From Pelagomonas calceolata (lineage: Eukaryota > Sar > Pelagophyceae > Pelagomonadales > Pelagomonadaceae), in contig CAKKNE010000003.1 in assembly GCA_918797485.1 (NCBI GenBank), forward strand, positions 930,001-994,000: a stretch of 64,000 bases of DNA, in the 5' to 3' direction. Below the pieces are notes generated by a model. That model saw only the letters and a list, made by a program, of their open reading frames with translations. It was not told where the DNA came from and ran no database searches. The position numbers and the translations under genes are program-made. This document shows positions 553 through 62,995 of this stretch, piece by piece. Within the stretch, counting starts at the first letter, position 1; every line of letters starts with the position of its first letter.

Positions 553-575
553 GCTAGTGTCTTACAGCCGCTAGC
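553..575 (+). promoter_or_regulatory. Copy 1 of the dispersed CTAG palindrome
   Basis: Reads GCTAGTGTCTTACAG then CCGCTAGC. It lies in the divergent spacer between the L24 gene (start 375) and the GBP-like gene (start 897). The rest of this 520-bp spacer shows nothing recognisable. Confidence 0.55.
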
Positions 576-896
576 TAAACGGCAACGGAGGGCTCTCCAA
601 ACGCAAAACGACGTCTCTTTTCTTAGTCCGCTGTGACCAAGACCTCCGACGCGTCGCTCGCGGGTCCCTCACATTTCGAGCAAGCTTTGCGCGGCGCCGC
701 ATCACAGCTCGACCTCCTGCTGCCGAACCAGTGCGCAGAACTGCTCGGCGCACCACATTTATTCGTGAGTCATCAGCAATTGGTCGAAACGCAGCCGCAG
801 AGAGCCGCCTGTAGAGTTGTGGAGGCACCCCAGTTGGGAGCAGCTTAAAATCCCTTGGTGCGCGCGCGCATCACGAGCACTGCGGGGGCCGAAACG

Positions 897-3449
897 ATGA
901 CGACGATGCGCGACCAGCAGAACGGCAAGACGAACAAGGCCATTCCCTTGATCCTAGAAAACGAGGGCCGCTACGAGGTGAGCGAAGAGGCCACGAAGCT
1001 CCTAGATGATTTACCGGCGCCCCTCGCCGTCGTCTCCATCGCGGGGCTGTGGCGCACGGGCAAGAGTTACTTACTGAATCAACTGAGCGGCGCCACCTGT
1101 GATAATGACAAAACCGGCTTCCAGGTCGGCGCGTCGGTAAATGCCTGTACCAAAGGTTTGTGGCTCTGGGGCGAGCCCGTGCGGCTGCCGGACGGGCTGA
1201 CGGTGCTGTTCATCGACACGGAGGGTCTGGGATCGACCTCGAGAACACAGACGGAGGACTCGCAGATCTTTTCCCTAGCTTTACTATTATCCTCATTATT
1301 CGTCTGGAACAGCCGAGGCGTCATCGACGGCAACGCCCTCGAAGATTTTGCGCTAGTAGTCAACTTAACGAAGCACATCCACGTGAGATCAGAAGCGGCG
1401 AAGAAAGCCCTCGAGGCTCATGATGCTAAAGGTGCCGAGAAGCACTTCGTGCATAGTGGCGGCGGCTTGAGCGCGGGCGCGTCGGCGGGCGCGGGGTCCG
1501 CGGGCCACGAGCTCGACGAGCTGGCGCAGCACTTTCCCGGCTTCCTCTGGGTCGTCCGCGACTTCACTTTGAAACTCGAAGACAACGGGCGGAGGATCAA
1601 CGACCGGCAGTACCTAGAAAACGCGCTAAAGCCCCAGCGGTCCTTCACGAGCGAGGCGGCGAGTCGGAATCAGATCCGGACGTTGCTCGGGTCATTTTTC
1701 AGAGAGCGCGACTGTGTGACGCTCGTGCGGCCGGCCGAGGACGAAGCTACCTTAAAAAAGTTGTCTCAAGTACCCGTCAGTTCATTACGGCCGGAGTTTC
1801 AAAGAGGATTGGCCAACCTCAAGGACAAGGTGTATGCTCAAACTAGAGCGAAGTCTGTCAATGGAAGAGCTCTCAGTGGCGCGATGCTCGCGACGCTGGC
1901 GAAAACTTATGCTGATGCGTTAAATGCCGGAGGTGTCCCTACGATCTCGACGGCCTGGGACCGCGTCCTCCAATCCCAAGCGGCGGAAGCGGTCGGTAAG
2001 TGCCTCGAGGACTACGATAAGAGTGCCTGTTCGACGCATGAGCTGCCTGATGCTTCCGTGCTGTCCGCGAAGTCGTACGATGAGGACGCCATTTCTACCA
2101 TAGTGTCGCAGTCCAAACTCCCGCTGTCGAACGATGAAGTCAGAAAAGCCCATCAGGACCGCGTGCTGAAGAGCGAAAAAAAGTATGCGAAGGCGGTCTG
2201 GGCCGACTCCTCTCAAAACCCCGAGCAGGACCAATTATCCGCTCTCGATGATGCTCTTGACTCTCGCTTGAAGCGTGTGCTGGATCTCAACCGAGCGGCG
2301 TCGCAGCAACAGTGCGATGAACTCGCTGATTCGATATCAAAACAATTTGAGTCTGATATGAGTAAATTGATCCAGACGCCTGGTCGTTCAGCAAAAGGCG
2401 CGTCCTACGGTGAAGTGGTAAGGGAGGAGACCCTGCAAGATCGAAATGCGTTCATGAAGGACCTGGACGCGAGGAAAGCGTTCCTGCGGACGTGGCGTCC
2501 TAGTGCCGAGAAAGCGTCAAAACAATATTTCAAGGAAGCGAGAGGGCCCTGTTCCGGCGACGTCTATTGTAGTATCGTGGCTCCACGATTGTTAGCTACT
2601 ATTTCTACTTGGGCGACGACCCTCGGTGTCGAGCATCGCGCCGTACAAAAATTAGCAAGAGCGGACGCGTCGAAGGCCGAGGAGCAGGCCCAGGCGGCGC
2701 GTGGGAGGTTAGCGGCGTCCAAGACCGCCGCTGTGCGCGAGCGAGACGCTTTAGATCGAGCCGCGGATGCTGCTGAGCTTGAAGGCAAAGGGGCACTTAC
2801 TGCTTTGGAACGATTAGCTGACTCTCGAAGAAGTGAACTAGCACGCCACGAAGCCGCTTCCAAGAGATTGGAGGAGGCCTATCAATATGCATCATCGTGC
2901 CTCGACGGTCAAGCGGACGCCGTGAACAGTATTGGAGAACAGGCGAAGGAGGGCCTGACGACCGTAAGAACCAAAAGTAGGGCGGCCATCGAGGACTCGG
3001 CGAATGCGGCCTCGGAGAACGACGCCGCGGAGGCCTGGGACGCCCACGACCTCGGGTTCGAGCGTGACGAGCTCGCGGAGTTCGCGCCGTTGCGCTTAGA
3101 TGCGTTGCGGGACAGGATAGCCGAGGACGAGAAGGAGTTGGAGTTGATGCACGAGCACGCCGCGTTGACCATCGAACATGCGAAAGTGAAGAAGATGCTG
3201 CTCGCGGATAAAGATCATGAGCTAAGGGAGTATGAGTACCAGTGGGGCGTGGCCAAGGCGAACGTCGCGGCCTCGGAAGGCGAATTGATGGTCGTCGAGG
3301 AGGAGGTGGCTGTTCTGCGCGGTTTAGTGTTGCAGATGCACAAGCACCTGGCCGACGCTTCACGAAGTGGTCGCTTCCCGGCGGACGTCGCGCGGGGCCT
3401 GCCGCGGGACCAGAAGGCGCTGTTGGAGCAGCTGCTGGACGGGCGCTAG
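897..3449 (+). CDS. Guanylate-binding-protein-like large GTPase
   Basis: 850-residue member of the GBP/atlastin branch of dynamin-like GTPases, which hydrolyse GTP and self-assemble on membranes. Visible motifs are the P-loop GLWRTGKS (about residues 50-57), the G3 motif DTEG (107-110), the guanine-cap region NSRGVIDGNAL (138-148) and the RD nucleotide-base motif in VVRDF (219-223). The remaining ~550 residues are Glu/Lys/Ala-rich and helical, as in the GBP middle and effector domains. A Gly/Ala-rich loop (HSGGGLSAGASAGAG) interrupts the GTPase domain near residue 190. No C-terminal CaaX box or membrane segment is seen. The frame is open upstream, but 897 is the first in-frame ATG. It converges on the zinc-finger gene. 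Cellular role unknown. Confidence 0.85.
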   Translation: MTTMRDQQNGKTNKAIPLILENEGRYEVSEEATKLLDDLPAPLAVVSIAGLWRTGKSYLLNQLSGATCDNDKTGFQVGASVNACTKGLWLWGEPVRLPDGLTVLFIDTEGLGSTSRTQTEDSQIFSLALLLSSLFVWNSRGVIDGNALEDFALVVNLTKHIHVRSEAAKKALEAHDAKGAEKHFVHSGGGLSAGASAGAGSAGHELDELAQHFPGFLWVVRDFTLKLEDNGRRINDRQYLENALKPQRSFTSEAASRNQIRTLLGSFFRERDCVTLVRPAEDEATLKKLSQVPVSSLRPEFQRGLANLKDKVYAQTRAKSVNGRALSGAMLATLAKTYADALNAGGVPTISTAWDRVLQSQAAEAVGKCLEDYDKSACSTHELPDASVLSAKSYDEDAISTIVSQSKLPLSNDEVRKAHQDRVLKSEKKYAKAVWADSSQNPEQDQLSALDDALDSRLKRVLDLNRAASQQQCDELADSISKQFESDMSKLIQTPGRSAKGASYGEVVREETLQDRNAFMKDLDARKAFLRTWRPSAEKASKQYFKEARGPCSGDVYCSIVAPRLLATISTWATTLGVEHRAVQKLARADASKAEEQAQAARGRLAASKTAAVRERDALDRAADAAELEGKGALTALERLADSRRSELARHEAASKRLEEAYQYASSCLDGQADAVNSIGEQAKEGLTTVRTKSRAAIEDSANAASENDAAEAWDAHDLGFERDELAEFAPLRLDALRDRIAEDEKELELMHEHAALTIEHAKVKKMLLADKDHELREYEYQWGVAKANVAASEGELMVVEEEVAVLRGLVLQMHKHLADASRSGRFPADVARGLPRDQKALLEQLLDGR

Positions 3450-3650
3450 TTTTTTGGGGATAACTTTTCTTACACATACAGCATCTGGTGGTTCTTGCGT
3501 CGCGGCGATGGCGTTCGCCCGCCACGACGCCATCGCGGCCAGTGGGTAGAGCTCCCGCCACGAGCGCCATCGCCGCGATATAAGGGTGGGGCAGAACCAC
3601 TCCCGCCGTCAACACGCCATCGCCGCGACATGGACGCACGCACGTCCTAC
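3450..3650. repeat. Convergent spacer with four copies of the GCCATCGCCGCGA word
   Basis: The 200-bp spacer between two converging stop codons holds four copies of a 13-base word in both orientations, near 3503, 3525, 3564 and 3607 (GCGGCGATGGCG, GCCATCGCGGCC and GCCATCGCCGCGA twice). The same word recurs in introns and 3' spacers across the window. Confidence 0.5.
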
Positions 3651-4211
3651 TCATGTCTTTGATTCGAGTATCGCCATCAGAAGCTCGCGGGCAGCCGGGA
3701 AGCGCGTATCGTCACCCCAAAGCTCCTTGTACGCCTTCACCGCGGTCGTTACCGCGTCGGTGGCTTTCAGGAAATCATTTTCTGCCGTCGGCGCGGTGCC
3801 GAGCTCGAGCACCGGCGCGCCCGGGAAACTTGGGGGCTCGCCGAACTTCGCGAGGTGTAATGACGCGTAGGGCGCGCGCAGTTTGGGGATCGCGTAGACG
3901 TCGAGGTAGCAGTCCTGCCCAAAATCCCACACCGACAGGTCGGAGAGCGAAACCGCGATGTGATGATTGCTCTCCTCTGCGTGCTTTTTCGCACAACCGT
4001 TCTTGTAGCGCGAGCAGAGGGGCGCGTGGCACTGGAGGCAGATCCAGACCTCGTCCTCGCCACAACGGGCGCAGACTGCCGACAATGCCTTGGCGCCGTC
4101 GAGCGGATCCGTGCTGATGCAGTCGAGGTGCGGCGTGCTCTTCTTGGGATACACTTGGAACCCACCGCCGTCCGAGGCCAAGGCGAGTTCTTCTTCGTAG
4201 AGAGAGGTCAT
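3651..4211 (-). CDS. UBP-type zinc finger protein
   Basis: 186-residue protein from ATG 4211. The centre carries a ZnF-UBP signature: CARCGEDEVWICLQCHAP, then CSRY, an HAEESNHH histidine pair, and SLSDLSVWDF. This fold usually binds the free C-terminal glycines of ubiquitin, as in USP5 and HDAC6. No peptidase or deacetylase domain is attached. The C-terminal third is helical with no recognised domain. The open frame extends upstream to about 4430 without an ATG, so that stretch is probably 5' UTR. It is divergent from MYG1 with a CTAG palindrome between them. It could act as a ubiquitin reader; function is inferred from the domain only. Confidence 0.7.
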   Translation of the reverse strand: MTSLYEEELALASDGGGFQVYPKKSTPHLDCISTDPLDGAKALSAVCARCGEDEVWICLQCHAPLCSRYKNGCAKKHAEESNHHIAVSLSDLSVWDFGQDCYLDVYAIPKLRAPYASLHLAKFGEPPSFPGAPVLELGTAPTAENDFLKATDAVTTAVKAYKELWGDDTRFPAARELLMAILESKT

Positions 4212-4462
4212 TGCTTCACGGAGACTTTCCTTGGAGCTGCGTCTGCTCGATGGCGTGGAGGCCGACGAGTCGTACTTCTTGTCCGCGCGGATCACAAGCA
4301 CTGCACTGCTTTCAGAGCTGTGTGTGCGCCCGAACCAGGTGCCGCGAGCAACTTTTCGTTGCAGCGCCCAATAGTTGACGACAAATAACAGTCTCGGGGC
4401 GATGCTTGATGCACCCGAAGGCCACAGCACGCCCTGAATCTCAGGAAGCTTCCGGTGAGTTA

Positions 4463-4485
4463 GCTAGCGGCAGTAAGGCACTAGC
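4463..4485 (-). promoter_or_regulatory. Copy 2 of the dispersed CTAG palindrome
   Basis: Reads GCTAGCGGCAG then TAAGGCACTAGC on the + strand. It lies in the divergent spacer between the ZnF-UBP gene (start 4211) and MYG1 (start 4674). Confidence 0.55.
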
Positions 4486-4673
4486 AAGCACCAAGGCATG
4501 CTACAAAAGCTAGGAAGCCAAAGCGCTGCTCACGCAGTGCACCGGAGGTTTGCAAATTGCCGCACGACTGCTCTGGAAGCCGTCGCCGCACTGCGAGTCG
4601 CTTGAATCCACGGCTGTGCATCGCTGAGACAGCTGCACGCCATCATCGCCATCGTCGCTTCGTCGCTGCGTGC

Positions 4674-5765
4674 ATGCGACGCGTCGCCAGAGCAGCCCTG
4701 CCAGCGCTCGCAAGCGCTTTCGTTGCACCAACGGCGCAGCTAAAAAGAAAGATGAGCGCCCTCACAGTAACGATAGGCACGCACTCGGGCACCTTCCAGG
4801 CCGACGAGGCGTTAGGTGTGTGGCTCCTACGCCAGCTGCCGCAGTACGCGACCGCACCGTTAACGAGAAGCAGGGACCAATCAACGCTCGACGCCTTGAC
4901 GATTGTCATCGACGTGGGAGGTTCATATGATCACGCGAAGCTAAGATATGACCACCACCAGCGGGGCTTCTTCGAGACCATCGACGGGAAAGTTGGCGAG
5001 GCCCAGGGGCCCTCGGAAGCGACGGGGCGCTTCAAGACGAAGCTGTCGGCTTCTGGTCTCGTCTACAAGCACTACGGCCGGGACATCATCAAGGTCTTGC
5101 ATCCTAGTATTGAGCAAAATGCGTTAGAGTGGTGCTACGGCCAGCACTACAAGACCTTCATGGAGGCGCTGGATGCGATCGACAACGGCATTGAAATCGC
5201 ACCCGAGACGTTGTATAGCGACGGCTCCTCCCTACCAGCGCGCGTCCACCGTTTAAATAGACCGTGGAACGCGCCGCCCGACGTGGAACAAAATGATGAA
5301 AACGCGCGGTTCGAAGGAGCGGTCATGCTGTGCGGCATCGAGTTCGGCGACGCCCTCGCTCATACCATCACGGTCGAGTGGCCGGCGAGAGCGTTAGTAC
5401 AGAAGGCGCTGAGCGATTGTGGTCAGGTCGACGCATCGATGAAGATCATCGCCCTCGAGAGTGGCGGCTGCCCCTGGCGCACGCACTTGTACGAGCTCGA
5501 GAAAGAGGCAGGTATTGGTGATCGCACGAAGTTCGTACTGTATCCGGACGGCAAGGGCCTGTGGCGCGTCCAGGCGGTGACGGTCGAAGGGACCTTGTTC
5601 CAGAATAGACTGTCTTTGCCGGAGCCGTGGCGCGGGTTGCGAGGTTCCGACTTGGATGCGGTCGCGGGCATCGAAGGTTGTGGTTTTTGCCACGCCACGG
5701 GCTTTATTGGGGGGCACAAGACGAGGGAAGGCGCATTAGCGATGGCGCGCAAGGCTCTACTGTAA
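4674..5765 (+). CDS. MYG1: MYG1 family exonuclease (UPF0160)
   Basis: 363 residues from ATG 4674, close to the usual size of MYG1 proteins. Visible DHH-like motifs are TIGTHSGTFQADEALG near residue 32, DVGG plus YDHAKLRYDHHQRG near residue 80, and ALDAID further on. Family members are 3'-5' RNA exonucleases of mitochondria and nucleus/nucleolus. The N-terminal extension MRRVARAALPALASAFVAPT before a second Met (4752) looks like a mitochondrial presequence. Initiation at 4752 would give the non-mitochondrial form, so dual targeting by alternative starts is possible. The C-terminus keeps the family HATGFIGG stretch. Confidence 0.9.
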   Translation: MRRVARAALPALASAFVAPTAQLKRKMSALTVTIGTHSGTFQADEALGVWLLRQLPQYATAPLTRSRDQSTLDALTIVIDVGGSYDHAKLRYDHHQRGFFETIDGKVGEAQGPSEATGRFKTKLSASGLVYKHYGRDIIKVLHPSIEQNALEWCYGQHYKTFMEALDAIDNGIEIAPETLYSDGSSLPARVHRLNRPWNAPPDVEQNDENARFEGAVMLCGIEFGDALAHTITVEWPARALVQKALSDCGQVDASMKIIALESGGCPWRTHLYELEKEAGIGDRTKFVLYPDGKGLWRVQAVTVEGTLFQNRLSLPEPWRGLRGSDLDAVAGIEGCGFCHATGFIGGHKTREGALAMARKALL

Positions 5766-5781
5766 AAAAGTTAGGCACTCA

Positions 5782-6519
5782 CTAGGCGTCCTCGGCCAGG
5801 CCCGTGTAGTCGTCGTCCGAAAAGTCGTCGCCCTCGTTCATCGCCTCGTCAAAAAAGCCCTCCCGGATTTTAGCCGCACGGTACTCCTCAACCGAACCAT
5901 AAGTAGGCTGGCCGTCGTCGTACTCGTGCTTGGCCGCCTCGCCTTCGATGAGGCCGTGAATTTGTAAAACGGCGGCCATGATCTCGCAGTTGCACTGTTC
6001 GCCGCCTAATTCCGCGAGACCGCGGATGTGGTACGTGACTTTCCCTTCCTTGACCAAGAGTAGTGTCGGAATGACGACGTTGCCCTCGGGGTCGGCGAGG
6101 ATCTTATCACATAGATACGGACTCTTCTCAGCATCAAACGTACAAAATCTCGTTTCCCGATGCAAGGAAGCCATTTTAGCTAAATGACCGTTCAGCGCGA
6201 CGCAATGGTGAGAGGTAGGCCGCATGAAGTGGCAGACTAATCTTTTTGAGTTCTTCGACGCAGCGAAGAACTCCTTCGTCTCCGTGAGCTGCGTGAGATG
6301 CCCATGCCCATGGCGCGACCACTCGGCCTCCTCGAGTTTCCGTTCTTTGAGCTGCTTGACCCGCTCTTCCCGAATCTTCGCGAGGTCCTTTCCATCAAGG
6401 TTATCTAATTTGTGGATTTCCGCGTCGAGCATGTTCTCCTGCATCTCGGCGATCATGCCGACCGCCTCCAGGGCCTGGTTGCCCATCTGCTGGTTTTGTT
6501 GTCCAAAACCGAGGTCCAT
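5782..6519 (-). CDS. TXNDC9: Thioredoxin domain-containing protein 9 (phosducin-like PLP3)
   Basis: 245 residues; ATG 6519. The N-terminal helix (MQENMLDAEIHKLDNLDG and following) and KIREERVKQLKE match TXNDC9/PLP3, followed by a thioredoxin fold with VCHFMRPTSHHC, where the family lacks the CxxC pair. The acidic tail ends DDFSDDDYTGLAEDA. The family binds the CCT/TRiC chaperonin and modulates actin and tubulin folding in the cytosol. It ends 16 bp from the convergent MYG1 stop. No cleavable signal is present. The name is secure at family level. Confidence 0.9.
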   Translation of the reverse strand: MDLGFGQQNQQMGNQALEAVGMIAEMQENMLDAEIHKLDNLDGKDLAKIREERVKQLKERKLEEAEWSRHGHGHLTQLTETKEFFAASKNSKRLVCHFMRPTSHHCVALNGHLAKMASLHRETRFCTFDAEKSPYLCDKILADPEGNVVIPTLLLVKEGKVTYHIRGLAELGGEQCNCEIMAAVLQIHGLIEGEAAKHEYDDGQPTYGSVEEYRAAKIREGFFDEAMNEGDDFSDDDYTGLAEDA

Positions 6520-6817
6520 CTTTGCGGGTTATCTGTCTAGGCGCGCGGCGGCGGCGTAAGTACTGCTAAACGCGCGGCGGCGGCGTATGGGCTGCAGCTT
6601 GCTTAGGCTGAGCAGCTATGGGGGTGCTGGTCTAGCTGCTGTCGATTCGGCCTCGATACGAGCTAGGCTGTTTTTTTGCACGCTTGCGCTAGCTTATTGC
6701 ACTGCTTGTTGCTGCGGAGGCTACGAGCGCGCGATAACGATCGCCCTGCGCAAGCAACGGGTGCTGGCTATTGCGGGGACTGCCCTAGATTTTGTAAAAC
6801 GCCGCGAACCGGTCGGA

Positions 6818-6841
6818 GCTAGCGGCCAGTAAGACACTAGC
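6818..6841 (-). promoter_or_regulatory. Copy 3 of the dispersed CTAG palindrome
   Basis: Reads GCTAGCGGCCAG then TAAGACACTAGC. It is 300 bp upstream of TXNDC9, in the 400-bp tandem spacer after the SpoU gene. The rest of the spacer is GC-rich with CGGCGG runs and no gene. Confidence 0.5.
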
Positions 6842-6924: not shown

Positions 6925-7626
6925 CTAGCTCTTAGGCCGCCACAGCGCGTGGAGCGGGTCCCGGACCGCGAACTTCGCCCCACTCCTTCGCTCCTCGGCA
7001 TAGCCGACGGCGTGCGCGAAGCACGACAACACGCACGCCGTCGCCGCGTTCACGTTTAGGGACGCCGTGGCGGCCGCATACTGCGGGACGTAAACGAGAG
7101 CATCGCACAACTCAATCTGCGCTTGACTGAGGCCGTCGCCCTCGTTTCCTGGCAATAGGCAGGTCGGTCGCACCGGCCAGGCTTCGGGGGAGAAGCAGCT
7201 CACCGCACTATCATCAATCTCGACGCCCACGACGCGACAACCTTGGGATTTAACCCACGCTATCAACTGAGCTAATGAAGCGAAGGCCCGCATGGGCACG
7301 CGCTTGTCCGAGCCGTGGGCGCCGAAGGTTCTGAGATTTTTCCGCATGCGTCTCGCGGTTCGTTCCGCAGAGACGACAAGGACTTCTTTCGCGCCGAACG
7401 CGCCGGCTGTCCGTATTAATTGTCCAACATTATCGGAGCTCTTGATGTTGTGGATGACCACATATAATGAAGGTGCCTGTCCCGTTTCCATCACTATAGA
7501 CTCGCCGGCGGGGCCCGTGCCGCCGCGCTGCAGCAGGACGCCGTCCGCCGGGATGGAATCGTCGTCATATTCTGCTGCGGCGTCGTCGTCGCAGGGTGGC
7601 AGCGCGTCGCTCGCCCAGGTGGCCAT
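6925..7626 (-). CDS. SpoU/TrmH-family RNA 2'-O-methyltransferase
   Basis: 233 residues from ATG 7626. The three SPOUT motifs are visible: HNIKSSDNVGQLIRTAGAFG (motif 1), CLLPGNEGDGLSQAQIELCD (motif 2) and YAAATASLNVNAATACVLSC (motif 3). These form the knotted SAM-binding site of TrmH-like enzymes that methylate ribose 2'-OH in tRNA or rRNA. There is no long N-terminal RNA-binding extension. Substrate cannot be told from sequence. An acidic N-terminus (DDDAAAEYDDDS) makes an organellar presequence unlikely, so nuclear or cytosolic action is inferred. Confidence 0.85.
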   Translation of the reverse strand: MATWASDALPPCDDDAAAEYDDDSIPADGVLLQRGGTGPAGESIVMETGQAPSLYVVIHNIKSSDNVGQLIRTAGAFGAKEVLVVSAERTARRMRKNLRTFGAHGSDKRVPMRAFASLAQLIAWVKSQGCRVVGVEIDDSAVSCFSPEAWPVRPTCLLPGNEGDGLSQAQIELCDALVYVPQYAAATASLNVNAATACVLSCFAHAVGYAEERRSGAKFAVRDPLHALWRPKS

Positions 7627-14569: not shown

Positions 14570-14593
14570 GCTAGTGTGTTACAGGCCGCTAGC
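14570..14593 (+). promoter_or_regulatory. Copy 4 of the dispersed CTAG palindrome
   Basis: Reads GCTAGTGTGTTACAG then GCCGCTAGC. It lies in the divergent spacer between the NHL/SH2 gene and the Mpv17-family gene. About 30 bp upstream is a short CCTAG tandem run (14520-14538). Confidence 0.6.
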
Positions 14594-16884: not shown

Positions 16885-16908
16885 TCTAGTGTGTTACAGG
16901 CCGCTAGG
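16885..16908 (+). promoter_or_regulatory. Copy 5 of the dispersed CTAG palindrome
   Basis: Reads TCTAGTGTGTTACAG then GCCGCTAGG. It lies in the divergent spacer between the oxidoreductase (start 16602) and the two-TM gene (start 17066). Confidence 0.55.
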
Positions 16909-19914: not shown

Positions 19915-19938
19915 GCTAGCGGCATGTAAGACACTAGG
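19915..19938 (-). promoter_or_regulatory. Copy 6 of the dispersed CTAG palindrome
   Basis: Reads GCTAGCGGCATG then TAAGACACTAGG. It lies in the divergent spacer between centrin (start 19728) and the gene starting at 20044. Confidence 0.55.
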
Positions 19939-25718: not shown

Positions 25719-25923
25719 ATTTGGTTTCTTTGGTCGCTGTGGCTTTGCGCCGCCTGTGGCTCTCCGGTGGCTACTGGTGCCAGACGCTGAGCTACTGGTG
25801 CAGACGGCTGCGCGCTGTCAACGAGCACACGGCTTCACGATCATACAGTTGCGCGAGGACCAGTGGTGTCGACGGGAGCGGGCTGCAGCCGAGCTTTTTG
25901 CGTCTATTATGCTGCGCTACCGT

Positions 25924-25939
25924 GGCGTAAGACACTAGC
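25924..25939 (-). promoter_or_regulatory. Copy 7 (half copy) of the dispersed CTAG palindrome
   Basis: Reads GGCGTAAGACACTAGC; the other CTAG arm is missing. It is 200 bp upstream of NAPRT. Confidence 0.4.
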
Positions 25940-33177: not shown

Positions 33178-33827
33178 ACGTCCCGCGGCGCCTTGTCTTG
33201 TGAGCGTTTATAAATCTGTAGTAGTATGTCAATTCGGGGTTTCGGGCGGGAAACTAGAGAAGTTCAGAGGAACCATTACGAGACGAGCGCCGGAGGGTCA
33301 AGGGCGTATAGAGGTTGCTAGTGTCGTAAGGCCACTAGCAAAGTTTTTGGAAAAACCAAACGCGCGCTCGACTACACGCGACCAACGAGCCAAGCCAAGC
33401 GGAGGTCAAGATGCGCGCAGGCCGCGTCCGTATCCAAACTACTCGAGAGCGCTCATCAAAATAGCGGCTCGCCACAAAACAAATGAGAGCGCCGCCCCAG
33501 CGCGGTGCCAGACCGGCCCCCAGCGGCCGGCGAGGCCACGCGCACAGCGCGCAAGCCTCCGCCGCGCCAACAGACCAAGCTCGTCAACCGCTTACGCGCG
33601 CGCCCTAGCCACGGCTCTGATCTCCTTGCTACTGCAGGTCTGCCCAGCCTCAGCAGCACCACGCGAACGGCGTCGCCGCGGCGCCCGCCGCGCCGCCGGC
33701 GCCCGCCGCGCCGCCGGCGTCGGCAGCCAACGAGGCCTGCTCGGCGCGCCCGCGCGTGTTAAGCGACGACAATCGGTGGGCGGAGGGCGTCTACGAGCTC
33801 CTCCATCCGTACAGCGTCCAAGCCGCG
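33178..33827. other. Spacer with CTAG palindrome and possible upstream exon
   Basis: Holds copy 8 of the palindrome (33317-33339). Nearer the next gene, an in-frame Ala/Pro-rich stretch (33655-33827) follows a possible acceptor CTACTGCAG. The gene at 33828 may therefore extend upstream through an unseen intron. Confidence 0.4.
33317..33339 (+). promoter_or_regulatory. Copy 8 of the dispersed CTAG palindrome
   Basis: Reads GCTAGTGTCGTAAG then GCCACTAGC. It is upstream of the + gene at 33828 and 277 bp after the PsbP-like stop. Confidence 0.5.
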
Positions 33828-34712
33828 ATGTTCCCGCCGAAGTCGATCCGCCGCACTGGGCCCAAGTTCCTTTTCTGCCTCGTCTTGCTGCGGTGGCTTG
33901 CTGGCTCGTTCATGGCTGCCGGAGTGGCGTCTCTTCTGGGTGTTGCGGGGCTTCGCGTTTTAAATAAGGTCAATCCTGCGCCGAGGCTCGATCTGACTTA
34001 CACGCAGCTTATGGAGGTACTCGAAAGGTCACTGTTGCTGCATGAAGCCATGCCCGATATTGTATCGGGGGATAGCGTGTTCAAGCGTGATAGGAATAAA
34101 GTGGCCCAGCGTATGGACCATGGTATCTTTGGACGGAGTTTGCGAACTATTTACGACATCGGCGGCGGCGGCAAACCCAGGCCGGGCCTCGGAAGACGGC
34201 AGTGCTGTTGGGAAGCGGTCCAGGAGCTCGCCAAAACAGATGGTAATGCTCAGAAGCTCGTCGCTTTTGTCGAAGAGCTCCGGGCTTACATCTCGCGGCG
34301 CTGCGGCCGCGAGGTCGAGGTCAGTGGCGCGACTGCGATCAGCACGCTCAACGACGGCGATACCGCCCTGCACGGCGACGGGGCGCGCTTCGATTTGCGG
34401 ACGATCACATGTCTCATGTTGGCATACGGGACGCCCGCATACGTGCCGAAGTGCGTCTCTTTTGGGCTGGTCCGTGACAGGGAGTGGGAAACGCGGGGCT
34501 TGGGCCGCGGCTCTTTCCATGGTTTGGAGGGGATGAAGGCTGCCTGGGATTACCTGGGCGACATCGTGGTGCACCATGGCGAGACGTACGGCGGCGACGT
34601 CTATGCCATGGGCGGCTGGGCCATCGGCCGCTTCCTCGCCGTGGCGCACCGGGTCAACCCGACCGTCGGGTGCCATTGGTCCATCGTGATCGACTGGAAG
34701 TTTGTCGAGTAA
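33828..34712 (+). CDS. Hypothetical protein, possible 2-oxoglutarate/Fe(II)-oxygenase-like fold
   Basis: 294 residues from ATG 33828, with likely upstream extension in frame. One hydrophobic segment (FLFCLVLLRWLAGSFMAAGV then ASLLGV) near the N-terminus suggests a membrane anchor. The C-terminal half has HGDGARFD near residue 180, RTITCLMLAYG, and HRVNPTVGCHWSIVIDW near the end. The HxD and later H...R spacing recalls prolyl-4-hydroxylase-type oxygenases, but the strands between do not fit clearly. Treat the enzyme idea as weak; the gene itself is better supported than its function. Confidence 0.5.
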   Translation: MFPPKSIRRTGPKFLFCLVLLRWLAGSFMAAGVASLLGVAGLRVLNKVNPAPRLDLTYTQLMEVLERSLLLHEAMPDIVSGDSVFKRDRNKVAQRMDHGIFGRSLRTIYDIGGGGKPRPGLGRRQCCWEAVQELAKTDGNAQKLVAFVEELRAYISRRCGREVEVSGATAISTLNDGDTALHGDGARFDLRTITCLMLAYGTPAYVPKCVSFGLVRDREWETRGLGRGSFHGLEGMKAAWDYLGDIVVHHGETYGGDVYAMGGWAIGRFLAVAHRVNPTVGCHWSIVIDWKFVE

Positions 34713-39687: not shown

Positions 39688-39712
39688 GCTAGCGAGGCAT
39701 AGAGACACTAGC
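39688..39712 (-). promoter_or_regulatory. Copy 9 of the dispersed CTAG palindrome (divergent)
   Basis: Reads GCTAGCGAGGCAT then AGAGACACTAGC. It is 190 bp upstream of the five-exon gene. Confidence 0.45.
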
Positions 39713-39948
39713 CAGCAGGTTGAGAGTACAAAGTCGAAACGGCGACTAGACGGGCTTCATCTACCCGCACCGATGGCAAAATACCCGCCCGCGCGCCCGT
39801 TGCCGATGACTTGGCTGCTTCGGGCAGCCCGCGGCGCGGGAATCTGGAATCAAGTTGGAGAATTAAGTCAGTTCCGAGAAGCCGTCCCCTTGACGCCGTC
39901 GACGACGACACGACGACGACGGGAGAAAACGGACACAGGGGGACAGAA

Positions 39949-40818: not shown

Positions 40819-40842
40819 GCTAGTGTGTTACAGGCCGCTAGC
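40819..40842 (+). promoter_or_regulatory. Copy 10 of the dispersed CTAG palindrome
   Basis: Reads GCTAGTGTGTTACAG then GCCGCTAGC, identical to copy 4. It is 470 bp upstream of the ABM gene, at the left edge of the gap element. Confidence 0.55.
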
Positions 40843-47584: not shown

Positions 47585-49410
47585 TTAAGCGTCGTAGCCG
47601 CCGCGGTCCTGGATGGCGCCCTCCTCGTCCTCGTCGTCGTAGTCGCGAGCCGGTCGCCGGTCGTAGTCGCGGGGCCGCTCGTACGACCGCTCGCGCGACC
47701 GTGAGCGCCGCCGCCGCTCGCGCCGCGCGTCGTAGGCGTCGTCGTCGCGGCGGCGCCGGCCGCCCCCGCGCCGCCGCTCCCGCGAGCGCGAGCGGTCCCG
47801 CCGGTCGCGCCGGCTACGATCGTAGTCGTCGCGCCGGCTCCGCTCGTAGCGCGCGTCGTCATCGCGCCGGCTCCGCGGCCTAGAATCGTCGTCGTCGCGG
47901 CGCCCCTCGCGGGTATACCTAGCCCGCGATGGCTTCTCCTCGCCGTGCCGCGCGCGCTCGCGCTCCAATCTATCAGACGCGTGGTCCATCTTCAACGCTA
48001 AAGTTTCTTTGTATCCTTTCGGCCTAGAATAAGTGAACTTGTCCGGCGCCGCCTGCGACTGCTGCGACTGGGCCACTTTCAGTTTTTTGCCCTTTAGGAG
48101 CGACTCGCCGTTCGAATCATTATTTCGAGTGTCGAGGTCGCCGAGCCGCACCAGGGCCCCATGCCCGTAGTCCGGAAATTGGACCTGGAACCGCACCCTT
48201 TCTTTCCCCGCATCGTCCGTGTCCTTCTCGATGGACTCGACGACCGCGTCGTACCAGGCCGGCTCGTTTTTACTGTCGCCGTAGATCGCTCTGACTTGAC
48301 ACCCCGGCTCGAAGCGGTCCAAGTACCTCGCGTTGTCCGAGGCCCGCTCTCGACTTTCGTCGACCAGAGCGACGCGCGCTCGTATGTCTCGATCGATCTT
48401 CGTCGGGATGCGCGGTAGTTGCGTCCCGTGGTACTGCTGCGACGTGAGGACGCCTCGTAACCATTCTCCTAATGTTTCTTTTCGCCCTTCTTCTAGAATT
48501 GCCCTTCCGTCATCGATGAAGACGTCCTCGCAGTACCTCCATAGCAATTCCGGTTTCAAAACGTATCGTAAGTACAAGAATCCTACCGCCCTGACGAGGG
48601 GCCGGTCCTTCTGCGCGAGGAGTTTGGTCATGTGCGCTTCGGTCAGGCCGAGCTGAAATAATCTAACGAGGATACAGAACGCGGTCGACGGCGTACGCTG
48701 CGTGCCGCGCTGCCACGGCTCGACATGTTTTATCTTCTCTCTAGCCTCCTGCAGCAAGGGCCCAAAGGCCTCGCCCATCTCCCACAATATCCTGGAGTAC
48801 TCGTGGTTCAGGACGCAGTTCGCCTATGCGTTGCGTGTTATCAAGACGCAGTATAGACGCTGAAAACGCGCCAGCAGCGGGTTGAGGTTGAACGTCTCCG
48901 AGCCGTGCGTCGGGAGCTTGGGCGAGAGCGAGTAGTCCTCCGCCGATCTTTGTGTAGACGCGGCGGCGCCCTCGGCCAGCGCGCGCGCGTAGTTCTCGCG
49001 CGCGCCGGGGACCTACATGATACAAAATGTCACGAAGAGTACGAGAAAGAAGGCCGGTACCTGGACTCCGTCCAAAGAACAGCTGCCAAACCCGGCGGCA
49101 GGTTTAAATGAGGCGACTGGTGGAGCGGCGCGAGCACGGGCGCGCCCGAGGCCGCCGCCGCCTGCGCCGCCATGGCGGCGAGGACGCGCGGGTCCGGCAG
49201 CGGCAGCGCGGGGAAGCCCGGCGGCGGCGCGAAGCCCGGCGGCGGCGCGAGCGGGAACGCCGGCGGCGGCAGGCGCGCGGCGGCTGCGGCAAAAGCGAGA
49301 TTCGGCGTCGGCACCGGCGGCGGCGGGGGCCGGCTGCGCGTCGCGGCGTCGAGGGCCGCGGCGCGCTGGGCCGCGCGCAGCTCCGCCAAGTGTTCGGAGG
49401 CGCGGCTCAT
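47585..49410 (-). CDS. PRPF38B: PRP38-like pre-mRNA splicing factor with inserted Tudor-like domain, three exons
   Basis: Proposed exons 49081..49410, 48872..49012 and 47585..48823, 569 residues. The N-terminus is Pro/Ala-rich. The PRP38 core begins ETFNLNPL at the end of exon 2 and continues in exon 3 with REKIKHVEPWQRGTQRTPST, AFCILVRLFQLGLTE and RAVGFLYLRYVLKPELLWRY. PRP38 is a spliceosomal protein needed for activation. A Tudor/SMN-like segment follows (CQVRAIYGDSKNEPAWYDAV then VESIEKD, QFPDYGHGALVRLGDL). The C-terminus is a long RS/RD domain. To keep frame, the second intron (48824..48871) needs a GC donor (CTG|GCGCGTTTTC); a GT 4 bp downstream breaks it. The first intron's donor is uncertain. 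Confidence 0.75.
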
Positions 49411-49579
49411 GTCTACGGCTTGCTCGTGCGGCAGTGTGATGCTATCGAGAGGCGCAGATGTTGCGGTGACAGCGATGATGGCAGCAGCGGTCGCAGCGAT
49501 GAATAATTATATGTGCGATGGCGCGGCGCCGCGATCAATGCGGCCAAAATCGTGTCGCGCCTGCTTGCTTTTTTTGCCT

Positions 49580-49600
49580 CTAGTGTCTTACAGCGCTAGC
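49580..49600 (+). promoter_or_regulatory. Copy 11 of the dispersed CTAG palindrome
   Basis: Reads CTAGTGTCTTACAGCGCTAGC. It is 170 bp upstream of the PRP38-like gene in the 300-bp tandem spacer after the SDR-like gene. Confidence 0.5.
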
Positions 49601-49709: not shown

Positions 49710-50807
49710 TTAGGATTCAGGCGACGAGGCCGCGTCCGCAACAGCGCAGAGCGCCTCCGCCGCGTCCCACGACCGGCGCGCGGCCTCTTGATTCATGTCG
49801 TTCGCGTCGACGTCGAGGCGCGACTTCCGCGAGCCGCGCCGCACGAGGGACCCGCTCGGTAGTTTCGTGGTCGGCTGGCGCGCCGCGAGGACGATGAGCT
49901 CCGCGGCCCGCTCCTCTGCAGACTCCGGCGGCGGCCCGCGGCAGAGGCCCCAACCCTTTTTTGAGCGCGTCTCGAGCGACACGACGACGGCCACGGCCGA
50001 CGCGTGCTCCAAGGCAAAGTCCGCAAGCCCCCGCGCGTCAAGCGGCTGGAGGACCGACGCGCGGACGTCGTCCTTTGACGCGCGGTCGTCGACGCACGCG
50101 TGGACGCACCGGCCCGCGGTCCGCTCGAGCAAAGGCGCGAGCTCCCTCGCGAGCAAGTGCGGCGCGAGGTGCGCGACAACCAGCCGCCGGTCGAGCCCCT
50201 CGCCCGTCGTCTCCGTCGCGAGCCGCTCGCAGGCCCCGCAGTTCACCAAGACGTCCAACCGCCCGAAGCGGCTCCGGATGTCCTTCGCGAGGCGGCGCAT
50301 CTCCGCGAGCAGCCCGAGATCGAACCCTTGAACGCCGATGACCTCGGACGCGTCCAACACACTCTCGCCCCCCGACGTCGTGAGCACGACCGCCGTGTCC
50401 GGCTCCCTCGCCAAGAGTTCCACAACGCGCCGCGCCACGGCATTGCCGCCGACGACCAAGCACACGCGCCCCTCCGGGAGCCGCGCAACACTAGAAGACC
50501 GGATGGAGTTGCCTCGCTTCAAAGCGGGCGGCGCCGGGCAGTCGGGCGACGGCGTGACGTTCTTCGCCTTGACGCGCGGCGGCGTCTTGACGTCGAGGTG
50601 TGAAAGGGCTTGCTCGGTGGGCTTCGGCGGCGTCGGGCCGAGCGGCGTCTCGGGCACTTTGCGGTGCGCGGGCGTGGCGAAGGCCTTGTTCGCGGGCTCG
50701 CCGCGCGTCGGCGGCGTCGCCGGCGCTTCATCTTCAAAGCTTACGCTCGACATCGTTTGCGTCCGGCTGGCGATTAATGAAGGCGGGTTGGGAAGGGTGG
50801 TTGACAT
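49710..50807 (-). CDS. SDR-like Rossmann protein with disordered N-terminus
   Basis: 365 residues from ATG 50807. Residues 1-105 are disordered with many Thr-Pro sites (PATPPTRGEP, PETPLGPTPPKPTEQ), suggestive of proline-directed kinase targets. From ~112 a Rossmann-type unit follows: VCLVVGGNAVARRVVELLA, FGRLDVLVNCGACERL, LAPHLLARELAPLLERTAGR. The glycine loop is reduced (GGNAVARR), and no YxxxK catalytic pair is seen where an active SDR should have it. It may therefore be a non-catalytic SDR homologue or a cofactor-binding regulator. The C-terminus is helical. Confidence 0.65.
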   Translation of the reverse strand: MSTTLPNPPSLIASRTQTMSSVSFEDEAPATPPTRGEPANKAFATPAHRKVPETPLGPTPPKPTEQALSHLDVKTPPRVKAKNVTPSPDCPAPPALKRGNSIRSSSVARLPEGRVCLVVGGNAVARRVVELLAREPDTAVVLTTSGGESVLDASEVIGVQGFDLGLLAEMRRLAKDIRSRFGRLDVLVNCGACERLATETTGEGLDRRLVVAHLAPHLLARELAPLLERTAGRCVHACVDDRASKDDVRASVLQPLDARGLADFALEHASAVAVVVSLETRSKKGWGLCRGPPPESAEERAAELIVLAARQPTTKLPSGSLVRRGSRKSRLDVDANDMNQEAARRSWDAAEALCAVADAASSPES

Positions 50808-50992: not shown

Positions 50993-51016
50993 GCTAGTGT
51001 CTTACGGCCCGCTAGC
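50993..51016 (+). promoter_or_regulatory. Copy 12 of the dispersed CTAG palindrome
   Basis: Reads GCTAGTGTCTTACGG then CCCGCTAGC. It lies in the divergent spacer between the SDR-like gene (start 50807) and the FYVE-lipase gene (start 51263). Confidence 0.6.
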
Positions 51017-54199: not shown

Positions 54200-55504
54200 T
54201 CATTCACTCGCCGCGATGCGACGTGCTGCCTCCGCGGCGGCCGCGTGCGCGACGGCTTCCTCGGCTTCCTCGGCGCGGAGGACCTGCTGGTCCTCGATGA
54301 ACTGCTTCGCAGCCGCCGCCGCCGTCGCGGCCGCGGCGGCTTGCGCCCGGAGGCCCACAGGGTGCTCGTCGTAGGGCATGACATCGATCACCCCACCGTC
54401 TTTGAGACCTATATCGTCGCACGACTGATCACCCTCGATCAGTACCTCTGGAGAACCGGGCAGACTGAACGCCCACTGGGTGATGTAGGGGCGCTGAGAA
54501 CCTCCTCTGTGTTTCGCGTAGTTCCTAAATACCTTCATGAGAATCGTTGTGGAGAGAACCTTGTAATATAATGCATTGGTGCCGTCTTCCGCCCGTCGAA
54601 CGCAAATGTTGAGTGGTGTGCCGCGCGGCGGCACAGGAGGCGGCGGCAGGTACGACATGACGCGTCGGAACAGGCCGCGTTCACCAGTACGGGCGAGGAA
54701 ATTTAAGACGCCGTCGCGCGTCGTCGCGCGGTCGTGAATCGCCAGATGTCGCACCAACGCGCACGTGCGGCGCTGCTCGATCACGTAGCTGCGGTAGCTG
54801 CCGGCCGCGCGGACCTGGCGCACGAGGGCCTTGAACGCTAGGTAGTTCGCGTTGTTGGCCAGCGAAGGCTCCAGCCGTTCTTTCTCGCCCAGGACCCATT
54901 CGATCGGCTCGGATCGACCAGTTGATTGCGCGTCTCCCTGCGCATCTCTGACCACTGACGAGTAGGCCGAGTCCAGACTCTCTCCATTGCGCAACAGTGC
55001 ATGGGCGACCTCCAGGTGTTGTTTTGTGAAGATGTGGGGCCCACACTCGGCATTGAGAATCATATAAGCAAGATGAGAGTAGCACTGAATTTTCTTTCGG
55101 CCGTCTGATAGCGATTGAGTCACTAGAGATTGACGTCGTATTGGGGTTGCCCCTGCGCCCCATCTTATCAGCAGGTCGATTACGCGGGGGGCTGAATAGG
55201 GAGCTTCCAACGAGACCGCGGACAGTACGCCGCTTGACATAGTGTTCGCCGGGATCTGTGGGTCATGCCCCACATGGAACAACTGATCTGGGTTCGCGCC
55301 GCTAGCCAGGGCCAGGCGGAGAAAGCGAAGCATTGACTCGGCATTGGATGGGCGAATGCATGTCGCAGCGTACCACATCACCACAATCAAGCTCTTTTGA
55401 GAGTGATGCTTGGACGCGAGCCACTGGCGGGCTTCCTCGACATGCTCAGGGCCCCCATATTTCAAGTAATCCACAACATTTGAGGGAACGTCAGGCTGCG
55501 ACAT
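54200..55504 (-). CDS. Ankyrin-like protein with C-terminal SUMO-like domain
   Basis: 434 residues from ATG 55504. The first ~280 residues contain ankyrin-like helix pairs (SMLRFLRLALASGANPDQLF; APRVIDLLIRWGAGATPIRR; KQHLEVAHALLRNGESLDSA). Residues ~330-410 resemble SUMO/Rad60: PLNICVRRAEDGTNALYYKV, STTILMKVFRNYAKHRG, then DDIGLKDGGVIDVMPYDEH, matching the GDVIDV end of SUMO folds. No GG terminus follows; instead an Ala/Glu-rich helix ends the protein, so it is a built-in ubiquitin-like domain and not a modifier. The open frame continues upstream through a tandem repeat, but without an ATG. Confidence 0.7.
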   Translation of the reverse strand: MSQPDVPSNVVDYLKYGGPEHVEEARQWLASKHHSQKSLIVVMWYAATCIRPSNAESMLRFLRLALASGANPDQLFHVGHDPQIPANTMSSGVLSAVSLEAPYSAPRVIDLLIRWGAGATPIRRQSLVTQSLSDGRKKIQCYSHLAYMILNAECGPHIFTKQHLEVAHALLRNGESLDSAYSSVVRDAQGDAQSTGRSEPIEWVLGEKERLEPSLANNANYLAFKALVRQVRAAGSYRSYVIEQRRTCALVRHLAIHDRATTRDGVLNFLARTGERGLFRRVMSYLPPPPVPPRGTPLNICVRRAEDGTNALYYKVLSTTILMKVFRNYAKHRGGSQRPYITQWAFSLPGSPEVLIEGDQSCDDIGLKDGGVIDVMPYDEHPVGLRAQAAAAATAAAAAKQFIEDQQVLRAEEAEEAVAHAAAAEAARRIAASE

Positions 55505-55651: not shown

Positions 55652-55675
55652 GCTAGCGTCCTGTAACACACTAGC
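55652..55675 (-). promoter_or_regulatory. Copy 13 of the dispersed CTAG palindrome
   Basis: Reads GCTAGCGTCCTG then TAACACACTAGC. It lies in the divergent spacer between the ankyrin-SUMO gene (start 55504) and the SNARE gene (start 55890). Confidence 0.6.
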
Positions 55676-58369: not shown

Positions 58370-58455
58370 CATTCAAGGAATCGAACCGGATCTCAGGGCT
58401 GAAGTGAGCTATTGAGCTCCCGCCCTCCGAGCTAGGCCATACAAGAGCTAGGGTG
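58370..58455 (-). other. tRNA-like sequence with perfect A and B boxes
   Basis: On the - strand TGGCCTAGCTCGG fits the Pol III A box and GGTTCGATTCC the B box, ~50 bp apart. A GAGC/GCTC anticodon-like stem and a CTCA/TGAG variable-arm-like stem lie between. T-arm and acceptor stems do not pair, so a tRNA pseudogene or tRNA-derived element is more likely than an active tRNA. It lies in the 310-bp spacer between two - strand genes, which otherwise shows nothing. Confidence 0.45.
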
Positions 58456-58471
58456 ATGTATAAACACATAC

Positions 58472-60553: not shown

Positions 60554-60833
60554 TGCAGCGATGGCGTGAGCGCGGCGCTTTTTGCTGCTGCAAAACAAGC
60601 TCAGCTGTAAAATTCAAAATACGTCGCGGATTCGCAGAGTTAGCGGCTCTGGCTGAGCACGGGCAAAGATTGGTGTACTGCCGAACTTCTGACCGTAGCT
60701 GACGATCAATGCGTACGCGCGCGCAGCTTAATGCTGCGCTGAATCTGCAGGGGCGGGTGCGGGTTTTAGTCGTCCGTGCGCGCGACTTTTGAATTCCGAT
60801 TTTTTTGGTGCTGTTTCAGTACTTACATACATA
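60554..60833. other. Spacer without a recognised gene
   Basis: 280 bp between two - strand genes. GTTAGCGGCTCTGGCTGAGC near 60640 may be a decayed CTAG palindrome; nothing else is seen. Confidence 0.35.
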
Positions 60834-61844: not shown

Positions 61845-62020
61845 TTATGCGACGACGCGGCAGCGTCGAGCGCTCCAATCTGTGGATCAGTTTCTAAACT
61901 GGCAGCAACGCAAGGACCAACGCTGCGCAGCGGTGAGCTGCTGTCTAGAGATGTGTTTCACGTCCGAGGACGCTACGTGTTCAGCCGGCAGCTCAAACCC
62001 CCAAAGTTGGGAAGAGCAGA

Positions 62021-62044
62021 GCTAGCGTCGTGTAAGGCACTAGC
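62021..62044 (-). promoter_or_regulatory. Copy 14 of the dispersed CTAG palindrome
   Basis: Reads GCTAGCGTCGTG then TAAGGCACTAGC. It lies in the divergent spacer between the transporter (start 61844) and the methyltransferase (start 62094), only 50 bp from the latter. Confidence 0.6.
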
Positions 62045-62093
62045 AAGCTCTGCGCGATTGGGAGGCTGCCCAACAGACGCCATCGACGCGAGA

Positions 62094-62900
62094 ATGGAGC
62101 CCTCGAAATCATTAAGAGAAGCCGTCGCCGCCATGGCCGGGCCGGGAGCCGAATTGAGGTACGAGGAGGCGCCGCGCCAGGCCATGCAGCGCCCGATGCC
62201 CAAGGACTGCTGGGCCGTCAACGCGTGCGCGCGGCCGGCGGGCCACTGGGGCGATAGCGAGTGGTACGATTTGCAACTCGAAAGGAGGCTGCCTCTCGTC
62301 GGACCCATGTTGAATGAAGTGGTCTGCGCGCTGCCTCCTCTCGGAAATGGCCGGGTCTGTGATGTGGGATGCGGCACTGGACGGTGCGCCGTTGAGATCA
62401 GGAAGGCCTATCTCCGCTGTACCTTGTGTTTATTGGATGCGGATAAGGACAGGGTCGAGACAGCCAAAAACAGAGTGGCAGAACCGGTAGAGGTGATAGT
62501 GGAGCCGTTCGTGGTCGGAGCACCATCCTTACCGGGGGCGCCCTACGACTGCGTCACTTTAGTGTTAGCGCTGAGGCATTCGACAAGACCGGCGCCGCAC
62601 TACGCCGAAAGGCTAGGATTGCCATTACATACGGGCACCGTCGAGGAGAGCTATCGCGCCGCTCTGACGACAATCTTCTGCTCGCTGCGGCCGGGCGGCA
62701 CGTTGTTGATTGGAGACCAGGTCGCGGCGGGCCACCCGTCGGTGTACAACCAATGTAAATTACTGGAGGACTGCGGCTTCGAGCACGTTGATATTGCCTG
62801 GCGCGACCGCGACTTTTTCGTGATTGGGGCCGCGGCGCCGGCGGACGACCCGGAGCCGAGTTGGTTTCGCGGGGAGGGCGGGCCGCGGTTGCCGGCGTAA
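62094..62900 (+). CDS. SAM-dependent methyltransferase
   Basis: 268 residues from ATG 62094. Motif I GRVCDVGCGTGRCAVEI, then LCLLDADKDRVETAKNRV (acidic loop after beta 2), YDCVTLVLALRH (motif IV region) and LRPGGTLLIGDQVAAGHPSV (motif VI) are those of class I methyltransferases. The C-terminus ends FFVIGAAAPADDPEPSWF. The substrate cannot be read from sequence. The open frame upstream to 61815 lacks an ATG nearer than 62094 that would fit; the CTAG palindrome lies inside that upstream stretch, which supports the later start. Confidence 0.85.
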   Translation: MEPSKSLREAVAAMAGPGAELRYEEAPRQAMQRPMPKDCWAVNACARPAGHWGDSEWYDLQLERRLPLVGPMLNEVVCALPPLGNGRVCDVGCGTGRCAVEIRKAYLRCTLCLLDADKDRVETAKNRVAEPVEVIVEPFVVGAPSLPGAPYDCVTLVLALRHSTRPAPHYAERLGLPLHTGTVEESYRAALTTIFCSLRPGGTLLIGDQVAAGHPSVYNQCKLLEDCGFEHVDIAWRDRDFFVIGAAAPADDPEPSWFRGEGGPRLPA

Positions 62901-62976
62901 GTTGTTTTCGTCATTTGCGGTTTAAGAGAAGCGATTCTCTACAGCGATTCGAGCCGTAAGGACTGGATCCCTTATT

Positions 62977-62995
62977 TCTAGTGTGTCACGCTAGA
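62977..62995 (+). promoter_or_regulatory. Copy 15 (shortened) of the dispersed CTAG palindrome
   Basis: Reads TCTAGTGTGTCACGCTAGA. It is 130-145 bp upstream of the DUF1995-like gene, in the tandem spacer after the methyltransferase. Confidence 0.45.

Follow-up and report, generated by a model that had tools for sequence, protein, structure and literature searches.

What does a word of about 24 bases, framed by CTAG, do between the genes of a very abundant ocean alga? The question is raised by a stretch of 64,000 nucleotides of Pelagomonas calceolata (contig CAKKNE010000003.1, forward-strand positions 930,001 to 994,000, here C3:930001-994000), hereafter the window, in which this element occurs in 15 copies. 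A sequence-only reading of the window had described it as a palindrome standing in most head-to-head spacers, and had proposed a core or bidirectional promoter motif, a transcription factor site or a tiny mobile repeat. The element lies in promoter-side non-coding DNA, at divergent and tandem promoters alike, and in several thousand copies; it is most likely a general promoter element of Pelagomonas, the putative binding site of a sequence-specific factor.

Sequence and number of the copies

The assembly comprises 32,445,274 bases in 8 contigs; the available text of the genome report for strain RCC100 gives 32.4 Mb in six nuclear contigs plus plastid and mitochondrion, with 16,667 genes and 0.45 intron per gene (PMC9481584). 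Copies were collected in a contiguous 264-kb region formed by the window and 100 kb on each side (R denotes coordinates in this region). The consensus is TTGCTAGTGTSTTAC-N4-CGCTAGC, and 43 aligned copies gave gcTTGCTAGTGT(C/G)TTAC-aggc-CGCTAGCT, in which CTAGTGT, TTAC and CGCTAGC are near-invariant and the spacer is loose. Inverted GCTAGYG arms (GCTAGTG and CGCTAGC) flank an asymmetric TSTTAC core, and the information outside the element falls to background within ~4 bases. The earlier description as a palindrome holds for the inverted CTAG arms and not for the whole, which is only partly palindromic, with an asymmetric core and a variable spacer. As scored in 46 copies, this spacer measures 4 (29 copies), 3 (9), 2 (4), 5 (2) or -1 (2) bases, and the copy at R 59,907, scored with spacer 4, fits spacer 0 better.

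A two-block position weight matrix (PWM) built from these sequences found 44 copies at >=12 bits in the 264 kb, whereas reading the same sequence in reverse gave none. The count was again 44 at >=10 bits and rose to 47 at >=8 bits (reversed control 1), and the scores were bimodal, with 39 copies at >=25 bits and three extra matches between 12 and 8 bits. The set of 46 copies used below starts from 45 matches with <=5 mismatches, from which R 15,799 (in coding sequence, CDS, with 4 mismatches) and R 173,482 were dropped as chance; five 6-mismatch matches were left out, and R 96,299 (14.5 bits, found through the PWM) and two compact copies, R 81,150 and R 162,977, were added, the latter two by hand.

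Genome-wide, 2,385 exact two-block matches with a spacer of 0-6 were counted (1,203 forward, 1,182 reverse), against none for the reversed pattern. When <=3 mismatches were allowed, there were 2,442 matches with spacer 4 (control 4) and 1,025 with spacer 3 (control 6), which sum to 3,467 against 10 for the reversed patterns, any overlaps between spacers included. The whole-genome total is estimated at 3,500-4,500 copies and, at 68 genes per 46 copies (see below), extrapolation would give ~5,200-6,700 genes, or at least a third of the 16,667. A second chromosome gave a similar picture, with 9 copies in 40 kb of C1 and none in its control. Elsewhere on that chromosome, two exact copies in the same orientation stand 37 bp apart (G000:C1:575888-575946).

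The two blocks have relative entropies of 25.2 and 12.4 bits, values inflated to some degree by a PWM made from consensus-chosen copies. By our arithmetic, ~14 bits would suffice to single out 4,000 sites among 65 million strand positions, so that the element is over-specified for its copy number. This raises the question of why a promoter site carries far more information than specificity requires; recognition by two proteins, a large recognition surface or an origin as a dispersed repeat are possible explanations, any one of which could be enough.

Position relative to genes

Genes were modelled with a coding hidden Markov model (HMM) trained on long open reading frames (ORFs), which predicted 127-128 genes and 51-53 introns in the 264 kb, a gene density and an intron number close to the published values. 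None of the 46 copies lies in predicted CDS, though 75% of the bases are coding, which bears out the earlier remark that no copy fell in a confident coding exon; in these unsplit models 37 copies are intergenic and nine lie in HMM 'introns'. A copy was found in 25 of 46 divergent spacers (10 of 14 in the window alone), in 12 of 33 tandem spacers and in none of 47 convergent ones, which for this region is the divergent-over-convergent enrichment proposed as a check. The convergent spacers total just 6.5 kb, for which 4.6 copies would be expected (P ~0.007). The distance from copy to ATG has a median of 218 bp (interquartile range 184-262, n=62, unsplit models), and successive copies are 953-15,444 bp apart, with a median of 3,479.

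The nine copies in 'introns' stand between long exons, and the first in-frame ATG follows 113-310 bp downstream in eight of them and 499 bp downstream in the ninth. Around the copy at 6818, Pfam recognized a SpoU-methylase (94.5 bits) and, below the cut-off of 23.5, a thioredoxin-like segment (21.8 bits); around the copy at 49579, it recognized PRP38 (98.1 bits) and, below the cut-off of 27, an SDR-like segment (23.8 bits). The HMM-joined pairs around such copies are probably separate tandem genes wrongly merged. After the models were split at these nine places, 21 of 42 tandem spacers held a copy and 68 of 136 genes had one within 600 bp (for 54 genes it lay at 100-300 bp), figures that the splitting itself raises in favour of a promoter reading. 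In 1,000 circular shifts, the corresponding numbers were 14.3 on average and 29 at most within 600 bp, and 4.8 on average and 17 at most at 100-300 bp.

The occupied tandem spacers bear on the view that the element is specific to head-to-head promoters, where it would coordinate both genes. The 25 occupied divergent spacers fit that view, as does the tendency of their copies towards the middle (position s.d. 0.18 of spacer length, against 0.289 if uniform). However, a central position follows from merely sitting ~200 bp from each ATG, and tandem spacers are occupied before as well as after splitting, which makes a bidirectional specificity improbable and indicates instead a general promoter element. 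Of the earlier claim about head-to-head spacers, the frequent occupancy therefore stands and the specificity does not.

Orientation bears on two further explanations. In the split tandem spacers, 11 copies point with the gene and 10 against it, and a 5'-UTR RNA structure or hairpin was rejected on this seemingly random orientation; the window also has no Rfam match at gathering thresholds, and neither a tRNA nor any known structured RNA was found in it. A core element placed at the transcription start, of the initiator or downstream-element type, would suit a widespread and promoter-restricted word, and lineage-specific core elements are described for oomycetes in the portion of that work consulted (PMC3599244). 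Yet the oomycete core motifs have forward/reverse ratios of 1.8-5.9 according to the same source (PMC3599244), and the seemingly random orientation, together with the loose distance to the ATG, leaves little likelihood for the core-promoter role once proposed.

In the 40 kb of C1, copies occupy four of nine divergent, one of five tandem and none of nine convergent spacers, and the remaining four copies lie between predicted exons inside HMM gene spans. Also on C1, the copies at 2039676 and 2041057 carry an extra core base (CTTTAC, CTTAAC), and each stands upstream of a block in a run of three successive minus-strand coding blocks; the HMM joined these blocks, which are perhaps tandem genes.

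The base composition changes around the copies: AT content rises modestly, from 0.32-0.40 at more than 200 bp to 0.40-0.45 within 100 bp (0.54 in the bin with part of the element). To the left of the element AT skew is mostly negative and to the right positive, a switch partly expected because of divergent genes. A position between genes in either orientation would also suit a chromatin boundary, an insulator or a replication-origin site at promoters, and in yeast the insulation of divergent genes is ascribed to Tbf1 and Mcm1 in an extract of one study (PMC9481977). The copies are dense for origins at their median spacing, and this explanation, although not fully separable from that of a promoter factor site, is considered very improbable.

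Copies in the window

The independent count agreed with the 15 copies reported earlier, and all nine positions listed then were recovered; what had been taken for a half copy at 25924 is present and, by alignment, is a 24-base copy at 25916 with 4 mismatches. Below, scores are from the PWM and genes from the coding HMM, and gene names come from Pfam searches, which covered 27 of the 34 window gene models with 30 segments.

553..575, plus strand: copy with spacer 3, 43.5 bits; between an L24-like KOW gene (minus, start 375) and a GBP gene (plus, start 897)
4463..4485, minus strand: copy with spacer 3, 39.2 bits; between a zf-UBP gene (minus, start 4211) and a MYG1 gene (plus, start 4752)
6818..6841, minus strand: copy with spacer 4, 42.7 bits; between the SpoU-methylase segment (minus, 6967-7626) and the weakly thioredoxin-like segment (minus, 5782-6489), HMM-joined by an intron and read as two tandem genes
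14570..14593, plus strand: copy with spacer 4, 43.0 bits; between an NHL gene (minus, start 14385) and an Mpv17 gene (plus, start 14765)
16885..16908, plus strand: copy with spacer 4, 27.5 bits; between a GFO_IDH gene (minus, start 16578) and a gene without Pfam match (plus, start 17066)
19915..19938, minus strand: copy with spacer 4, 34.6 bits; between an EF-hand gene (minus, start 19728) and a gene without Pfam match (plus, start 20044)
25916..25939, minus strand: copy with spacer 4 and right arm CGGTAGC, 32.9 bits; 218 bp upstream of an NAPRTase gene (minus, start 25709), the nearest predicted plus-strand gene being 3 kb off
33317..33339, plus strand: weaker copy with spacer 3, 27.7 bits; within an HMM 'intron', with exon 33657-34712 (plus; no Pfam match) downstream
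39688..39712, minus strand: copy with spacer 5, 21.2 bits; in a tandem spacer, 201 bp upstream of a minus-strand gene (start 39499)
40819..40842, plus strand: copy with spacer 4, 42.9 bits; between an ABM gene (minus, start 40350; 480 bp) and an RRM gene (plus, start 42226; 1395 bp)
49579..49600, plus strand: copy with spacer 2, 31.6 bits; between the weakly SDR-like segment (minus, 49728-50753) and the PRP38 segment (minus, 47585-48823), HMM-joined and read as two tandem genes
50993..51016, plus strand: copy with spacer 4, 42.3 bits; between the weakly SDR-like gene (minus, start 50753) and an FYVE-lipase gene (plus, start 51263)
55652..55675, minus strand: copy with spacer 4, 40.4 bits; between genes starting at 55504 (minus) and 55890 (plus), both without Pfam match
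62021..62044, minus strand: copy with spacer 4, 40.0 bits; between an EamA gene (minus, start 61505) and a methyltransferase gene (plus, start 62094)
62977..62994, plus strand: compact copy with spacer -1, added by hand, left block 20.5 bits; in a tandem spacer, 153 bp upstream of a plus-strand gene (start 63140)

Conservation at orthologous sites

In a collection of prokaryote genomes, the exact spacer-4 pattern occurred in four contigs, all from marine metagenome-assembled genomes (MAGs) labelled Spirochaeta or proteobacterium: L066 (NZGT01000041.1), L067 (CAJWEZ010000013.1), L068 (CAJWOS010000634.1) and L069 (NZGT01000054.1). The count of four alone is near chance level, and the informative part is the identity of the contigs. 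L069 is syntenic with C6:2669048-2678806 over 10 kb at 80-87% identity, L067 matches C1 at 90-96% over 1.6 kb (only bases 2043-3615 of its 8 kb matching strongly), and C6 is matched by parts of L066 (90%) and L068 (89%). To judge by these alignments, the four contigs contain Pelagomonas-like eukaryote DNA, evidently mis-binned.

Conservation of position in relatives had been suggested as a check, and the element was present in the P. calceolata genome at all five orthologous sites (34.9, 37.9, 23.8, 33.2 and 36.3 bits), four of which were themselves located through the exact pattern, unlike the fifth (L069:2685); the comparison concerns presence in the P. calceolata genome only. In L069, the most diverged relative, 21 of 24 bases are retained in one element and 21 of 23 in the other, and the 60-base flanks match in 47/64, 46/111, 30/73 and 50/78 columns. 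Three of the five differences in these elements fall at tolerated places, namely the C/G position, the spacer and the outermost G. In L066, the flanks are unalignable past the stop of the upstream gene, and in both genomes a copy in the same orientation follows that stop (by 74 and 17 bases); global alignment left these copies unpaired (18/46 columns), and no downstream gene is visible in L066. The L067 and L068 regions are nearly identical throughout and add little beyond presence.

Some segments of L069 are themselves repeated: 1424-1556, 2251-2406 and 5864-5998 match dozens of places in the genome (roughly 70-100%), and the first two hit one and the same set of places, on opposite strands. 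For the P. calceolata genome, introner elements ~210 bp long are described in the accessible text of its report (PMC9481584), and these segments are perhaps introner elements shared with the relative.

The filled sites also bear on the idea of a tiny palindromic repeat that is mobile and lands where promoter chromatin is open, for which the inverted GCTAG ends and the information far above the need of a few thousand sites (25.2 and 12.4 bits) could speak. No target-site duplication (TSD) was apparent, as exact flanking duplicates were seen in 4 of 43 copies at 2 bp and in 0 of 43 at 3, 4, 5, 6, 8 and 9 bp, the best z being 2.5 over 16 offsets and 7 lengths. Moreover, homology of the flanks is absent beyond ~4 bases and decayed copies are few, with only the step from 44 at >=10 bits to 47 at >=8 bits. 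Isolated left blocks are also scarce (6 at >=12 bits, including the 2 compact copies, against 2 in the control), on which ground transposon ends were rejected as well. No empty site was encountered among the five orthologous sites, a small number of which four were chosen through the pattern. Insertion of a mobile repeat, as the sequence-only reading had entertained it, is accordingly hard to credit.

A viral link was likewise rejected. A single match in viral contigs, L011:4580-4604 (IMGVR_UViG_3300023103_000002), is at the estimated chance level; this contig carries GCTAGTGTTTTACGGCACCGCTAGC just upstream of the minus-strand ORF 3624-4559, its ORFs are phage-like by reading alone, its GC content is 0.48-0.57, and its bases 2600-6600 gave no match to the P. 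calceolata genome. When five 13-14-mers of the element were compared with printed literature, one occurred, by chance, inside a yeast DPH1 tagging primer.

A putative site for a general promoter factor

The position of the element, its independence of orientation, its set of tolerated positions, its sharing by divergent genes and its conservation in place argue together for a protein-binding site upstream of the start. Among the earlier proposals, that of a transcription factor site or promoter motif has gained strong support: the element stands ~200 bp upstream of ATGs, is absent from CDS and convergent spacers and is kept at orthologous sites. A sequence-specific factor, probably a dimer or a multi-domain protein, would read both inverted arms and the TSTTAC core, tolerating a flexible spacer of mostly 3-4 bases. 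Once bound, it may keep the promoter centre free of nucleosomes and may aid initiation on one or both sides, in the manner of general regulatory factors such as Abf1/Reb1 of yeast or of human ZNF143 (PMC11118474).

Several observations weigh against this interpretation. About half of the examined promoters are without the element, and its distance to the ATG is loose (60-530 bp). The gene models are HMM-made, nine copies lie in their 'introns', and both pairs tested with Pfam have one neighbour below the cut-off. The 264-kb region, with 30 exact two-block copies (114 per Mb against 74 per Mb genome-wide), is ~1.5 times richer in the element than the genome. Two of the five differences in L069 fall in the usually invariant core, both in the second element, and these two variants also occur in a few other copies. 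Finally, Abf1 and Reb1, factors of a comparable class in yeast, are reported in the part of the study at hand to limit divergent non-coding transcription (PMC9481977), so that two-sided action is not a given for that class.

Searches for the factor yielded no candidate: the C2H2 model (PF00096) gave only two matches over the cut-off in the genome, so that a zinc-finger array is not evident, and the RFX DNA-binding domain (PF02257) gave 0 matches in the genome, with no match in any control genome either. A bolder proposal, which we hold only tentatively and think rather doubtful, is that of a pelagophyte-specific pioneer factor, possibly with a new type of DNA-binding domain, that would mark a third to half of the promoters and, chiefly at housekeeping genes, act as the lineage's master organiser of promoter chromatin. 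The site would exceed 30 bits, over twice the need for a few thousand places in 32 Mb.

The element was found upstream of 10 of 20 proteasome genes, 185-393 bp from the domain start, and of one of 10 light-harvesting complex (LHC) genes (Fisher p 0.049), in a non-random choice with unequal windows (20 of 27 proteasome matches with 700 bp each; 10 of 93 LHC matches with 550 bp each). This is only a hint of use at housekeeping genes, with which neighbours in the window would fit (L24-like, PRP38, SpoU, NAPRTase, EF-hand, MYG1 and Mpv17), a list that has no control set.

As it stands at about half of the examined promoters, the element offers a handle for finding the general promoter factor of this lineage, and it would be useful for sequence-only promoter mapping, correction of gene models and expression tools. 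In the literature on Pelagomonas, Aureococcus, pelagophyte or stramenopile promoters and motifs, the titles and abstract starts listed held no report of it, and the main text of the genome report has 0 uses of motif, palindrom or intergenic (PMC9481584).

Other motifs near the genes

Two further words were noticed in the 264 kb. The word GGGCTGCCC (for example at window 39822-39830) has 17 matches, 14 of them outside gene bodies and mostly upstream of genes, and its reversed word has 2 matches, 1 of them outside gene bodies; it is a candidate second promoter motif. On the gene strand, the word ACGCCATCGACG (for example at window 62077-62088) is over-represented shortly before called ATGs; it was rejected as a second promoter motif, 232 of its 318 matches (<=2 mismatches) being in gene bodies. 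Its enrichment may reflect miscalled N-termini; alternatively, the word may be a YY1-like site.

Comparison with known systems

Within stramenopiles, the Phytophthora elements INR, FPR and DPEP are core elements, of which DPEP tends to housekeeping genes, according to the accessible text of the study (PMC3599244). Like the element described here they are lineage-specific, but they are short, oriented and near the transcription start, with unrelated patterns, and the word CTAG has 0 occurrences in the main text of that paper (PMC3599244).

A likeness in length is found in human ZNF143, with a 29-base motif and 4,682 ChIP (chromatin immunoprecipitation) peaks; its loss lowers chromatin accessibility, and motifs of ZNF143 type, together with those of other initiation factors, are enriched in bidirectional promoters, as stated in the available part of that report (PMC11118474). 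The ZNF143 site is long like the element, but has a TGGGA core and much degeneracy, and the consensus of the element is without TGGGA.

The RFX X-box combines a half-site GTTGCYA.. with inverted arms and a variable gap. This half-site resembles TTGCTAG, whereas the TSTTAC core and the CGCTAGC arm do not fit it.

The yeast sites of Abf1, Reb1 and Rap1 lie, like the element, in promoters upstream of the start; those of the Abf1/Reb1 type share with it the use of either orientation, and the Abf1 site is built, as the element is, of two blocks with a spacer. The element differs from all three in being much longer, in its flexible spacer and in a sequence unlike the Abf1, Reb1 and Rap1 motifs. A promoter factor site is already known as a kind; the sequence of this one, its length and its lineage are new as far as literature searches show.

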